From positions 39,157 through 103,156 of the forward strand of contig CACVAS010000105.1 in assembly GCA_902727855.1 (NCBI GenBank): a DNA stretch of 64,000 nt, read 5' to 3'. The notes beneath the pieces are model-generated. The model was given only the letters and a program-made list of their open reading frames with translations. It made no database searches and was not told where the DNA came from. This stretch comes from an uncultured Sulfurovum sp. Its GTDB lineage: Bacteria; Campylobacterota; Campylobacteria; Campylobacterales; Sulfurovaceae. How positions within the stretch are numbered: the stretch's first letter is position 1; each line of letters starts with the position of its first letter. Below, one piece after another: positions 17,286 to 57,954 of this stretch. The position numbers and the translations under genes are program-made.

Positions 17286-17831
17286 ATGAACAATGTAAAT
17301 AAAATGAGACGTGGTTTTACAATGATAGAATTAATTTTCGTTATTGTAATTATTGGTATTTTAGCAGCGGTTGCTATTCCGAAACTTAATGCAACAAGAG
17401 ATGATGCAAAGGTTTCAGCATGTATTAGTGATTTGACAACATTGCTTACAGACTTAAATACATATTATACATCTCAAGGTAGCTTTTCACCTCCAGGAGC
17501 AGCAGCAAACATACCAGCAAATATGCAGTTAATTACAAAAGTAGAATTATTTGAGAATACTCAACTAGCAAGTAATGGTAGTGCTGGAGATTATAGTTAT
17601 TCTTGTCAAACACCAGGTGTTGGTGGGGCAGCAGGAACAGAGGCTGTGAACTATTCATTTGCTACAGTAGCAGACCCTGCAGGGAATGTAAGGATTGAAA
17701 TGACTGCAACAGCAGCAACTGATGTACAAGGTACAGTTGATGGAGACTTAGGACAACTACTTACATTGAAAAACCAAGCAAGTACAGCAGGGGTTATTCA
17801 TTATATTGGTGGTTTAAGAGTTAAAAGATAG
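17286..17831 (+). CDS. Type II secretion/type IV pilin-like prepilin
   Basis: RRGFTMIELIFVIVIIGILAAVAIPKLNATRDDA class III signal/N-methylation motif. Confidence 0.9.
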   Translation: MNNVNKMRRGFTMIELIFVIVIIGILAAVAIPKLNATRDDAKVSACISDLTTLLTDLNTYYTSQGSFSPPGAAANIPANMQLITKVELFENTQLASNGSAGDYSYSCQTPGVGGAAGTEAVNYSFATVADPAGNVRIEMTATAATDVQGTVDGDLGQLLTLKNQASTAGVIHYIGGLRVKR

Positions 17832-17924
17832 AATTTGTTATCTTACAATTAAAAACATTATCTATCTTGTCAAAAGATAAGATAGATAATTCTACTCTTC
17901 TTTCTTAAATAATGGATACCTAAA

Positions 17925-18446
17925 ATGTATAACAAAAACCAAAAAGCTTTTACGATGATAGAACTTATTTTTGTGATTGTAATCATTGGTATTTTGGCTG
18001 CGGTCGCTATACCAAAACTTAATGCTTCTCGTTATGATGCTAAGGTTTTAGCAGTGGTACTTCAAGCCAAACAACTACTACAAGATGTCCATACTTTTTA
18101 TACCTCACAAGGGAAAAGTGCCTATGTTTCAAATGCCACTAAAATTGGTATGGTGACAAGTATACCTTTACATCTTGATGTTGCTTGCTCTAAACCAAGA
18201 CCAGAACAAAGATGGTATGGTAAGACAATGTATCTGTGTGAAGATGGTGTACCAGTATTAATGATTACAATGACAAATGATACAAGTTTAGCACAGCAAT
18301 CTATATTTTATAAAGCATATAGTTCAATTACCAATCAACTGATTATGGAGTTATCTAGAGATACAATGTTTACTACGTTAACAAACCCTACTGAACCTGA
18401 TGGTACAAAAAAATATATTATAAGTGGCATAACAGTTAAACGATAG
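17925..18446 (+). CDS. Type II secretion/type IV pilin-like prepilin
   Basis: QKAFTMIELIFVIVIIGILAAVAIPKLNASRYDA. Confidence 0.9.
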   Translation: MYNKNQKAFTMIELIFVIVIIGILAAVAIPKLNASRYDAKVLAVVLQAKQLLQDVHTFYTSQGKSAYVSNATKIGMVTSIPLHLDVACSKPRPEQRWYGKTMYLCEDGVPVLMITMTNDTSLAQQSIFYKAYSSITNQLIMELSRDTMFTTLTNPTEPDGTKKYIISGITVKR

Positions 18447-18509
18447 ATGACGTTAATCACAACTTTGTTATAATCAGTCAAATAATCTCTTTTGATAAAA
18501 AGGAAAAAA

Positions 18510-18944
18510 ATGCAAAATAGAAAAGCATTTACGATGGTAGAACTTATTTTTGTTATAGTCATCATAGGTATACTCTCGGCCGTTGCCATACCTAAACTCG
18601 CAGCCACGCGTGATGATGCTGTCATAACAGTAGGTGTGAATACTTTAGCATCAGTACGTAATGCCATAGCAACTGAAAGACAAAAACGTATCCTTAGAGG
18701 GGATTTTACAGGTATTACTAATTTAGATAATGATGGTGATAACACTCGAATATTTACATCGTTTAATACCGATAACAGGGATAATAATAATTCAATTTTA
18801 GAATACCCTGTAAAACAAGGTACAAATGCTGGTGAATGGCAAGTCAGCGGTACTACATATACTTTTTATTTTACAGGTGGTTCTTGTGCCTTTACTTTGG
18901 CTAATAATAGATTATCTGGTAATTGTCCGCAAATGGGATTATAA
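18510..18944 (+). CDS. Type II secretion/type IV pilin-like prepilin
   Basis: NRKAFTMVELIFVIVIIGILSAVAIPKLAATRDDA. Confidence 0.9.
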   Translation: MQNRKAFTMVELIFVIVIIGILSAVAIPKLAATRDDAVITVGVNTLASVRNAIATERQKRILRGDFTGITNLDNDGDNTRIFTSFNTDNRDNNNSILEYPVKQGTNAGEWQVSGTTYTFYFTGGSCAFTLANNRLSGNCPQMGL

Positions 18945-19061: not shown

Positions 19062-19601
19062 ATGTTAGCCATAAAAAACAAGTATCTTCCTAATTATACC
19101 TATGATGACTATGTGTTATGGGAAGGGAATTGGGAGCTTATTTATGGTGTGCCGTATGCTATGGCTCCTGCTCCGATGATAAAACATCAAGCTATTAGTA
19201 ACAAAATAGCATGGCAACTTCAAGATGTTTTACAAAAGTGTGAAACCTGTCAAGCGCTACTCCCCATAGACTGGAAAGTAGACGAAACCACCACTGTACA
19301 ACCAGACAACCTTGTCATTTGCCATACCCCTCAAGAAGAAGCCTACATTAACAAAGCACCTAAAGTCATTTTTGAAATACTCTCTAAGTCTACAGCCATG
19401 GTAGACAAAAATTTAAAATATGAACTCTACGAAAGAGAGGGTGTAGCATACTACATCATCGTTGACCCTAAAGAGTCTATTGCAAAAGTCTATATGCTAA
19501 AAGAAGGTAGATACATCAAAGTATGTGATGCCCATGAAGAGCGTGTAGAGTTTGCCTTAGAAGGGTGTGCTTTTGGTTTTGACTTTTCTAAGATTTGGTA
19601 G
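19062..19601 (+). CDS. Uma2-family (DUF820, PD-(D/E)xK fold) protein
   Basis: YTYDDYVLWEG...WELIYGVPYAMAPAP...VQPDNLVICHTPQEEAYINKAPKVIFEILSKST...KYELYEREGVAYYIIVDP. Confidence 0.9.
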   Translation: MLAIKNKYLPNYTYDDYVLWEGNWELIYGVPYAMAPAPMIKHQAISNKIAWQLQDVLQKCETCQALLPIDWKVDETTTVQPDNLVICHTPQEEAYINKAPKVIFEILSKSTAMVDKNLKYELYEREGVAYYIIVDPKESIAKVYMLKEGRYIKVCDAHEERVEFALEGCAFGFDFSKIW

Positions 19602-21505
19602 ACAAGCCCATAGTGAAATATTATGAAGTAGTACTGCTTAGGTCTTCTGCACCTACCTTAACTTACGTCTTTTCTGAAAGTATAGCTACAGGTACTGTAG
19701 TGACTGTACCACTAAAAACCACCCATAAAGAAGCAGTTGTTGTTAGAGAGGTTGATAAACCAAGCTATGAAACAGCCCAAATTTTAGATATTTCAATTAA
19801 ACAGTATAGTACAGAACAGATGGCGTTAGCCAAGTTTATTGCTGAGTATTATTTTTCCTCTTTTTCTGAGGCTATTTCTTTGTTTTTGCCGTATGGTAGG
19901 GGGCGATTGCTATCGCACCAATATAACGATGAATCAAATGATACTATAGCATCTAATAGTAATGGTGTGATGGCAATCACCCCCTACGCAAACCTAAGTT
20001 TATCACAAGCACAACAACAAGCCTACGAAGAAATTTTAAAAAAAGAGAGATCTCTACTTTTTGGTGTGACAGGTTCTGGGAAAACAGAAATTTTCATAAG
20101 CTTGTTTACCAAGATGATAGCAGAGGGAAAAACTTCTATATTTTTGATGCCTGAAATTTCACTTACCCCGCAAATGGAAAAACGTCTTAAGGTCTATTTT
20201 GGTGATGGGGTAGCAATGTGGCACTCTAAACTGACAAAGAAGAAAAAAGCGTCTATCTTAGAAGGTATTGAACAAGGGTCTGTACACATTGTTGCAGGGG
20301 CTAGGTCTGCGTTGTTTGTGCCTTTAAAAAACCTAGGACTCATAGTAGTCGATGAAGAGCATGACGACAGTTACAAGTCTATGACACGCCCACGCTACCA
20401 TGCACGTGATGTGGCTGTGCTTATGGGGCAAAAACTAGGTGCAAAGGTGTTACTGGCATCTGCCACACCAAGCATTACTTCGTACTACAAGTATGATGTG
20501 GTGAAACTCGCAAAGCCTTATGTTGAAACGAAAAAACAATACATTTTTACCACAGGCAACAAACTTGACCACACCATACTCAAAGCCTTACACAGTAACT
20601 ACAGCAAACAAGAACAGTCGCTACTTTTTTTGCCTACTAGAGGTAATTTTAAGTATTTGTATTGTCAAAGTTGTGGAAAGACGCACCTTTGTCCTTACTG
20701 TTCGGTGGGTATGGCACTGCATAGAAATAAAAAACATATGAAGTGTCACTACTGTAATTTTACGGAAATGATTGTAGATACCTGTACGCAGTGTGGACAT
20801 AGCCCTTTAAGTTCTGAACGCATGGGTACACAAGAGGCGATTGAGATTATAACAGACGCCATAGAGGGGATAGAAGTAGAGCAGTTTGACAAAGACAGCA
20901 TTACAACAACGAAGAAGCTCAAAGAGGCGTTAGGACGTTTTTCTGAAGGGAAGAGTCATTTGCTTTTAGGTACACAGATGCTAAGTAAAGGGCATGACTA
21001 TGCGAACATCACGCTGAGTGTCATCATGGGGCTTGATTACATTTTAGGACTTGCAGACTACAGAGCTAGAGAGCGTGCCATGTCACTACTCTTACAAATA
21101 GCAGGAAGAAGTGGAAGAAGCAAGGCTGCGAGTGTTGTGGTGCAAACGGGTGACGCCGAGTTTTTCAAAAACTACATAGCAGACTATGAGACGTTCATCA
21201 AAGATGAGTTACTTTTTTTGGAGATGGCAGACTACCCACCTTTTGTCTCTTTGGCTCGTATATTGGTGGCACACAAAGATGAAGCCAAAGCTGCAAAAAT
21301 AACACTAGACACGGTAACAAAACTCAAAGCCTTTAAAGAGCTAGAAATAGTAGGTTCTGGTAAAGCACCCGTAGAACGCATTGCCAATAAGTTTAGATTT
21401 CACATATTACTCAGAAGTAAAAATCGTGTACCTTTACTTAAAGCGTTGCATAGCGTTGACTGTAGAGAAATAGAGATAGACTTTGACCCAGTCGAGTTTT
21501 CGTAG
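19595..21505 (+). CDS. priA: Primosomal protein N' (replication restart helicase PriA)
   Basis: [26 protein letters not shown], zinc-binding CQSCGKTHLCPYCSVGMALHRNKKHMKCHYC. Confidence 0.96.
   Translation: MVDKPIVKYYEVVLLRSSAPTLTYVFSESIATGTVVTVPLKTTHKEAVVVREVDKPSYETAQILDISIKQYSTEQMALAKFIAEYYFSSFSEAISLFLPYGRGRLLSHQYNDESNDTIASNSNGVMAITPYANLSLSQAQQQAYEEILKKERSLLFGVTGSGKTEIFISLFTKMIAEGKTSIFLMPEISLTPQMEKRLKVYFGDGVAMWHSKLTKKKKASILEGIEQGSVHIVAGARSALFVPLKNLGLIVVDEEHDDSYKSMTRPRYHARDVAVLMGQKLGAKVLLASATPSITSYYKYDVVKLAKPYVETKKQYIFTTGNKLDHTILKALHSNYSKQEQSLLFLPTRGNFKYLYCQSCGKTHLCPYCSVGMALHRNKKHMKCHYCNFTEMIVDTCTQCGHSPLSSERMGTQEAIEIITDAIEGIEVEQFDKDSITTTKKLKEALGRFSEGKSHLLLGTQMLSKGHDYANITLSVIMGLDYILGLADYRARERAMSLLLQIAGRSGRSKAASVVVQTGDAEFFKNYIADYETFIKDELLFLEMADYPPFVSLARILVAHKDEAKAAKITLDTVTKLKAFKELEIVGSGKAPVERIANKFRFHILLRSKNRVPLLKALHSVDCREIEIDFDPVEFS
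19897..19987. repeat. REP-like palindromic element inside priA (left arm TAGGGGGCGATTGCTATCGCACCA, right arm TGGTGTGATGGCAATCACCCCCTA)
   Basis: Same arms recur at 21503-21599 just downstream. Here it is in frame (GRGRLLSHQYNDESNDTIASNSNGVMAITPY). Confidence 0.85.
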
Positions 21506-21599
21506 GGGGCGATTGCTATCGCACCACATCATTCAATTTTACATAAAACAGAACACTCGCCGCAAGGGCTAAAATGGTGCGATGGCAATCGCCCCCTAC
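21503..21599. repeat. Second copy of the TAGGGGGCGATTGC..GCAATCGCCCCCTA palindromic element; supplies the priA stop codon
   Basis: TAGGGGGCGATTGCTATCGCACCA ... TGGTGCGATGGCAATCGCCCCCTAC inverted arms. Confidence 0.9.
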
Positions 21600-55932: not shown

Positions 55933-56942
55933 TGGAACGTATGGTTGAGATAGAGCGTTTTGAAGAAGAGAGTTCTTATGAGGTCTCTTTACGTCCTAGT
56001 GGATGGGATGAATATATTGGTCAAGAAAAGATAAAAAAAAACCTTAAAGTTTTTATAGAAGCAAGTAAAAAAAGAGAAGAAGCACTAGACCACATTTTGT
56101 TTTTTGGCCCTCCTGGTTTAGGTAAAACAACCATCGCAAACATCATTGCTAACCAGATGAATACCAATATAAAAACCACTGCAGCACCCATGATAGAAAA
56201 GGCAGGCGACTTAGCTGCACTTCTTACCAATATTGAAGAGGGTGATATACTTTTTATAGACGAGATACACCGTATGTCTCCAGCAATAGAAGAAATACTT
56301 TACCCTGCGATGGAAGATTTTAGATTAGATATTATTATAGGTTCTGGTCCTGCAGCACAGACTGTAAAGATAGACCTGCCACGTTTCACACTTATTGGTG
56401 CAACGACAAGAGCAGGGATGCTCTCCAACCCTTTACGTGAACGTTTTGGTATGCACTTTAGAATGCAGTTTTATACACCTGAAGAGTTGGCAAAAATTGT
56501 AATGCAAGCTTCTCACAAGTTAAATAAGGTGTCCCTCCCTGATGCAGCTGCTGAGATGGCAACAAGAAGTAGGGGAACTCCACGTATCGCTTTGCGTTTA
56601 CTCAAGCGTGTGCGTGACTTTGCTGAGGTACTCGATGAACAAGAGATAAGCCTTGAGAGAGCACAATATGCGCTTGATCAACTAGGCGTAAATAATCTTG
56701 GTTTTGATGAACAAGATATACAACTTTTAGAACTACTAGTAAGTGCTAAAAATAAGCCTATGGGGCTTAGTACTATAGGTGCTGCCTTAAGTGAAGATGA
56801 AGGGACGATAGAAGATGTGTTAGAACCCTATCTTATAGCCAATGGCTATATAGAGAGAACAGCAAGAGGACGTATTGCTACACAAAAATCCTATGAGCAT
56901 TTTAAACTTGCTGGGGCGAAGGATGGACTCTTTAATGACTAA
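55932..56942 (+). CDS. ruvB: Holliday junction branch migration DNA helicase RuvB
   Basis: [19 protein letters not shown]...[21 protein letters not shown]...[23 protein letters not shown]. Confidence 0.97.
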
Positions 56943-57954
56943 AAGTTCTTTAATGGTGACTGCACTATTTGTCTTGGCGATTGTAGGAGCTTACTCAGTG
57001 TATGCACCTTATTTACTCTCTTTAACTGTAGCAATACTCTTAACCATGGCAACATTTAACCTTAGTAAAAAGTTAGTTGCGTGGACAAACTCAGCAAAAA
57101 TCTCTTCAGCTATCTCAACATTTTTACTCTCTTTACTCCTTTTTGCTCCTATTGTCTACTTAGCAACTATTGGGGTAGGGTATGTGACACAAGTAGACAG
57201 TGCAGGTATTAAAGAGACTGTGCACACAGTAAGAGAATACTTAGAACAAGCACCATTTTTTAATGAGTTAAGTAAGCAATATTTGAACGATGATAAAATT
57301 TCTAACTATATTGAGGAGTCAACCCACTATATCACTGCCTTAGGGTCAGCTGGGCTTAGTTTTATGAAAAACATGTTTTTTGTTGTGGTCTTTTATTTTT
57401 TCATTAATTTTTATGGAGACCGTTTCTTTGATATGGTACTAAAACTTTTACCTGTTTCTGCACCAAAAGGTTCAAAAATTATGCACGAAATCTCTGCTAC
57501 TATGGAAGTTGTTTTCTTTTCTATCATCGTAACAGCCATATTTGAGGGTATATTATTTGGTATTATTATGAGCTATTTTGGTTTTAATGGGCTACTCTTT
57601 GGTGTCATTTATGGGTTTGCCTCTTTAGTGCCTATTGTTGGTGGTATTATGGTTTGGGCACCGGTCTCTTTATATGCATTAACACAAATAGACTCCCATA
57701 CAGCTATTGTCATTGCTACGTATTCTGTAGTTATCATTTCGATTATAGCCGATACGTTTATTAAACCTATGATTATTCAAGTGATTAAAGAAGACTTTTT
57801 AAAGTGTACGGTGCAGGTAAACTCTATTGTTATTTTCTTCTCTATTTTTGCTGGTATGAGTACACATGGCTTTTGGGGAATGATTTTAGGACCAGCAGTT
57901 ACGTCGTTTTTGATTGCTATTACAAAAGTCTATGTAAACTATGCAGAGAAATAG
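56923..57954 (+). CDS. AI-2E-family transporter
   Basis: Polytopic. [24 protein letters not shown]...PMIIQ...[21 protein letters not shown]. Start inferred at MDSLMTKSS. Confidence 0.85.

Follow-up and report, generated by a model that had tools for sequence, protein, structure and literature searches.

In-frame REP-type palindromes in priA and recurrent repeat occupation of the PriA linker in Sulfurovum

In an uncultured Sulfurovum sp., the gene for the replication restart helicase PriA carries a REP-type palindrome in frame, in the linker between the 3'-DNA-binding domain (3'BD) and the first helicase lobe, and a second copy of the palindrome lies on its stop codon. The two copies had been spotted in an initial annotation of the window, i.e., the whole 64,000-nucleotide stretch of DNA that was analyzed. 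Beyond that annotation, a comparison of priA sequences suggests that the insertion is no one-off and that the PriA linker is a recurrent, tolerated landing pad for mobile repeats of many families across the genus.

The explanation that we consider best as a whole, with a probability of roughly 0.75, is the insertion of a GTAG-type REPIN into a disordered linker that tolerates it and is rewritten repeatedly. Such a REPIN is non-autonomous and presumably depends on a RAYT (an HUH/Y1 tyrosine transposase) for its copying. It would have inserted in frame into the linker, and a second copy onto the stop. Sulfurovum PriA has no winged-helix (WH) domain at this place; the linker that is left is predicted to be disordered and varies freely in length, and insertions that keep the frame and avoid a TAG would not be removed by selection; in our own reading, they escape purging because the linker is disordered and length-tolerant. 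It would then be rewritten by whichever short repeat abounds in the genome, elements being swapped either by loss and new insertion or by recombination between alleles. We infer that neutrality, rather than benefit, explains why the inserts persist.

Two REPINs in the window and their family in the genome

Two GTAG-tagged inverted REP pairs (REPINs) are found in the window (Table 1). The arm pattern matches four times in the window and not once in 100 dinucleotide-preserving shuffles. A single arm folds as ....((.(((((....))))).)). with the GTAG free at the foot, a GG.GCGAT/ATCGC.CC stem and a four-base loop; the right arm of copy 1 reads GTAGGGGGTGATTGCCATCACACCA when inverted. The arms thus show the feature by which GTAG REPs and REPINs are recognized, an unpaired GTAG at the base of a short, imperfectly palindromic stem. 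Each pair also forms a long hairpin as DNA (z = -5.8 for copy 1 and -9.2 for copy 2), and the RNA folds reach z-scores of -8.6 and -10.9, respectively. Copy 1 comprises 92 nt or 31 codons and encodes the PriA segment GRGRLLSHQYNDESNDTIASNSNGVMAITPY. The interpretation of the priA insert as a REP-type palindrome in frame is supported, as is the initial estimate of about 31 added residues. The element begins at the G of GTAG (19896), one base before the 19897 of the initial annotation, the observation itself being confirmed. The two copies had also been described as lying in the same orientation; this holds for the whole pairs, with their identical left arms, but each copy is itself an inverted pair.

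Table 1. Position of priA and of the repeat elements in the window.
Feature	Position	Strand	Remarks
priA, replication restart helicase PriA	19595..21505	+	start TTG 19595 or GTG 19613; stop TAG 21503-21505
REPIN copy 1 (head-to-head pair of GTAG REPs)	19896..19987		in frame inside priA, residues 101-131 in the TTG reading
Left REP arm, copy 1, GTAGGGGGCGATTGCTATCGCACCA	19896..19920	+	GTAG unpaired; hairpin GG.GCGAT-TGCT-ATCGC.CC
Spacer, copy 1, 42 nt	19921..19962		
Right REP arm, copy 1	19963..19987	-	differs at three positions from the copy 2 left arm
Walker A motif GVTGSGKT	20063..20086	+	just 3' of the linker, intact; invariant columns G157-K163
REPIN copy 2	21502..21599		overlaps the 3' end of priA; the stop codon TAG lies within its GTAG
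Left REP arm, copy 2	21502..21526	+	identical to the left arm of copy 1
Right REP arm, copy 2	21575..21599	-	one difference

The genome-wide arm count and the RAYT search that the initial annotation had proposed were both positive. In the 3.1-Mb assembly (G000), 30 occurrences of the arm pattern were counted, compared to zero for the reversed pattern, and several of them form inverted pairs (including some among loci L004-L026). De novo formation of the palindromes in the linker was rejected, as the same arms are dispersed elsewhere and the controls gave none. A RAYT of 148 residues is encoded on contig C58 of this assembly (NF047646, E = 1e-42, 145 bits against a cut-off of 80; also Y1_Tnp). 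Since REPINs of the same family lie on both sides of it, at 56624-56759 and 57262-57396, the sequence anatomy is that of a REPIN with its RAYT. This RAYT would then have made the insertions. Matches of the RAYT/Y1 type number eight or nine in this assembly and 25 in another (G098). A single REP of the same family also lies in frame (RRGRLPSHQ) in a 588-codon open reading frame (L012 1501-1525; G000:C58:106361), which looks like an AddA/UvrD-type protein. In a sub-family of the REPIN, which includes the copies L027 (G000:C107:152957) and L040, the priA insert of genome G013, the right arm is longer and contains an additional CCCAAGGG...CCGTTGGG hairpin.

By its sequence, the gene encodes a complete PriA. 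NF004069 matches residues 8-636 (E = 3e-251), and the 3'BD, helicase lobes, Cys-rich region and C-terminal domain are all present in Pfam (PriA_3primeBD, DEAD, Zn_ribbon_PriA, PriA_C) and NCBIfam annotations. Motif residues that are conserved among relatives are intact. The GTG at 19613 appears more likely as the start than the TTG at 19595 because relatives align from about residue 6-8. As initially proposed, the first TAG of the second copy, within its GTAG, is the stop codon of priA. In nearly every relative, PriA terminates at the equivalent ...DPVEFS residue, whichever of TAA, TAG and TGA is the stop; therefore, copy 2 has evidently taken over the stop codon and left the protein unchanged. 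GTAGG is located exactly at the stop in 12 of 87 priA loci, including that of the window, and stems from several families. Directly 3' of the priA stop, many species (e.g., L044, L055, L056, L063) carry heptamer-like tandem repeats (GTGAATA, GTGAAGA) of the same kind as those in linkers. The window's assembly, listed as 9% contaminated, also contains a second PriA C-terminal fragment with 73% identity (G000:C125:1-153), perhaps from another organism.

The insert in the context of PriA

In an AlphaFold2 model based on 36 sequences, residues 101-130 have block means of 29-44 pLDDT between well-predicted domains, with values below 50 at residues 104-129. The insert is thus predicted to be disordered. 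Around 38 residues, likewise predicted disordered, separate the last helix of the 3'BD (90-94) from the first helicase helix (138), and a WH domain between the 3'BD and helicase lobe 1 is absent from the predicted model of the window PriA. This form of the protein fits the Campylobacterota-size model NF004069 of 612 positions. When the predicted model was compared with PriA structures, E. coli PriA with its WH domain deleted (6dcr) was among the best matches (TM 0.79/0.78), while sequence alignment to PriA structures covered the helicase part only. Given the domain order 3'BD, WH, HD1 of E. coli PriA (PMC10175261), the linker occupies the position expected of the WH domain. Unlike in 6dcr, in which the deletion was engineered, the domain is naturally absent in Sulfurovum and repeat-derived linkers are found in its place.

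Linker reuse across Sulfurovum

The linker was delimited between LF[LIV]P[YF] and LS..QQ.AY in 90 distinct priA sequences, from MAGs and a few single-contig genomes, and it is in frame and stop-free in every one of them. Recognized repeats occupy 61 of the 90 linkers, with at least six GTAG-REP families among them; the classes were set from short arm patterns after the sequences had been seen. These occupants comprise families A (GCGATNGC; n = 6), B (GGTCGG; n = 8), C (GGGTGYTG; n = 5), D (GGGGTGCC; n = 5), E (GGGGNNNACC; n = 7) and F (GCGTGGGC; n = 2), a CGTTCCC palindrome (n = 5), CGTC-type palindromes (n = 5) and three kinds of heptamer tandem repeats (n = 18). The other 29 show no recognized repeat, a class that takes in decayed cases such as L079, with a spacer like that of family B. 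GTAG is read in two different frames, of the VG and RR type. Rather than being shared by all related PriAs with ordinary conservation, the 31-residue segment of the window is missing from most relatives, and the aligned linker is highly variable. Other Campylobacterales, taken as the outgroup, have short linkers free of repeats. A scan for 14-bp inverted repeats gave 28 loci within 15.0 kb of linker sequence and 23 within 151.7 kb of other priA sequence; as it is noisy outside the linker, only the density ratio, about 12 in favor of the linker, is used.

Of 78 Sulfurovum genomes, family B is dispersed in 40, C in 47 and D in 26, and the controls gave 0. Each genome that could be matched to a priA carrying one of the families A-D holds at least three copies of that family in total. 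The median number of counted REP copies is 41 for genomes with a GTAG REP in priA versus 2.5 for the others (p = 2.6e-6, with species that are not independent). The association between a REP in priA and a strong RAYT is weak (p = 0.03), and some genomes, such as G077, have many REPs with little or no RAYT. RAYTs do not account for the CGTC and heptamer repeats.

On a quick single-gene tree built from the PriA core with the linker removed, the element class changes at least 43 times, and a palindrome is gained or lost at least 20 times. Class labels are more clustered on this tree than shuffled labels (none of 200 shuffles was as low); therefore, part of the pattern is inherited, and inheritance is observed as well as turnover. 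Some switches separate close relatives. For instance, L104 and L109 are 96.4% identical outside the linker and carry family A versus the unrelated CGTTCCC palindrome, L112 and L128 (93.2%) differ by the same switch, and L043 and L071 (90.6%) carry families B versus E. This distribution among species may reflect insertion and excision; a same-species strain pair with and without the element was not found among the genomes compared. The priA inserts of the window's genome and of G013 are 86% identical over 80 nt (element positions 1-80), compared to 77% for the best other copy, and 12 extra bases at the 3' flank are common to both. Their grouping is not rejected by an AU test on the tree (p = 0.27), and the two probably share one inherited insertion. 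Similar spacers were in the end not taken as proof that an insertion is shared, as REPINs of one family share spacers elsewhere.

Several of these properties are known from other systems. In-frame GTAG and CGTC REPs encoding 20-30 residues and REP termini that give TAG stops were described by Di Nocera et al. (2013, PMC3733652), who also listed Sulfurovum NBC37-1 with both types of repeats and reported one instance in which recB of two Xanthomonas species carries different REPs at about the same position. The elements described here resemble their GTAG REP dimers in the GTAG tag, the short stem-loop, the head-to-head dimers and the REP-flanked RAYT genes. In contrast to the single recB case, one linker receives many families genus-wide, and unrelated repeats too. 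The text of PMC3733652 does not mention priA, and our literature search found no paper on REPs in priA. REPIN/RAYT systems (PMC8049555; TnpA-REP/REPtron, PMC8266576) likewise have an inverted REP pair as their unit, a RAYT flanked by such pairs and a family spread over the genome. They usually have a single RAYT copy, whereas this assembly has eight or nine RAYT-like genes, and mobility is here presumed. Rickettsia palindromic elements (RPEs) are also palindromic repeats that lie in frame in housekeeping genes, where they are presumably translated (PMC10969869). However, RPEs are about 150 bp long and belong to Rickettsia, while in Sulfurovum GTAG REPINs with RAYT are found and one site receives many families; given the different organism and the GTAG tag, we do not file these elements as RPEs. 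In-frame REPs, TAG stops from REPs and RPEs are thus already known. What is new, as far as the literature found shows, is that many families have occupied one and the same linker throughout the genus, with fast turnover. This would amount to the rewriting of a core enzyme's interdomain linker by mobile repeats, and it offers a natural record, drawn from one conserved helicase in an entire genus, of protein segments that tolerate foreign in-frame sequence.

Other genes and alternative explanations

Repeats in frame are not limited to priA. Among 90 sampled REP sites of the genus, 18 are in-frame parts of long reading frames; the genes concerned, named by eye from their translations, include priA, folC, alaS, recG, hypF, ribD and a cca-like HD nucleotidyltransferase. 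Nine of 61 REP sites in stretches of G060, G024 and G016 are likewise in frame, about six of which look like real genes. In 12 of 30 folC loci (L371-L400), one FolC loop contains both GTAG-type ends (GTAGGG, CCCTAC), the arms being of several types; some of the remaining folC loci have LRQAQEP-type, heptamer or other repeats in the same loop. Similarly, a loop of the Cca-like protein before KLKF.FA.LCHD.GK (L401-L430) holds, depending on the species, GTAGGTCGG-type, GTAGGGTG-type or heptamer-repeat inserts. Both sets of loci were ranked by similarity to an insert-bearing query, which introduces a mild bias. Under these gene names, assigned by eye, the two loops appear to behave like the PriA linker. 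Several genomes show a further in-frame length change in the cca-like gene near query residue 308.

We weighed other accounts of the linker pattern. A single ancestral REPIN insertion, inherited genus-wide, with arms that co-evolved or were gene-converted stepwise with the genomic REPs and few new insertions, would agree with the clustering of labels on the tree and with an insertion point that is nearly the same in most species. The spacers of L043, L060 and L079, which are alike though their PriA cores are not neighbors, also fit, but this likeness is partly a family trait, common to copies at the priA stop. Such descent is quite unlikely, as GTAG, CGTC, CGTTCCC and heptamer tandem occupants are unrelated and cannot grade into each other; the switches between PriAs that are 96.4% and 93.2% identical and the two reading frames of GTAG also speak against it. 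The chance that metagenome repeats simply joined unrelated sequence during assembly is close to nil. Most genomes are MAGs, the window's assembly is contaminated to the listed extent and assemblers fail at repeats, yet the single-contig genomes G016, G024 and G060 show the same, and priA continues in frame on both sides, with no frameshift or stop in any linker. An assembly artefact was therefore rejected as largely refuted.

Inserts may instead be kept as useful, either as a palindrome acting in priA mRNA or DNA (pausing, stability, regulation) or as a peptide serving PriA. The strong hairpin in the coding RNA, the occupation of the linker in most species, the recurrence of GTAGG at the stop and the earlier record of in-frame REPs in replication and repair genes (PMC3733652) point in this direction. 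Nonetheless, we regard such a benefit as very improbable: nearly a third of the linkers (29 of 90) lack a recognized repeat and 18 have heptamer repeats instead of a palindrome, the encoded peptides vary in sequence and length, the insert is predicted to be disordered, and similar insertions occur in the functionally unrelated FolC, Cca-like protein, AlaRS and RibD. Finally, core enzymes such as PriA, FolC and the Cca-like protein might hold a defined set of recurrent landing loops at which elements are actively exchanged, with a transposase or recombination preferring these sites beyond selective tolerance, which we hold to be unlikely. The reuse of the linker makes it testable whether REP/RAYT elements insert randomly and are filtered by selection, as in the REPIN insertion and tolerance that we favor, or prefer certain sites.

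Two minor observations concern the region upstream of priA in the window. A run of three genes encoding type IV pilin-like proteins (FTMIELIFVIVIIGIL) is located at 17286-18944 and is probably a tandem duplication. Just before priA, at 19062-19601, an open reading frame of 179 amino acids resembles, as judged by eye, a Uma2-type protein.
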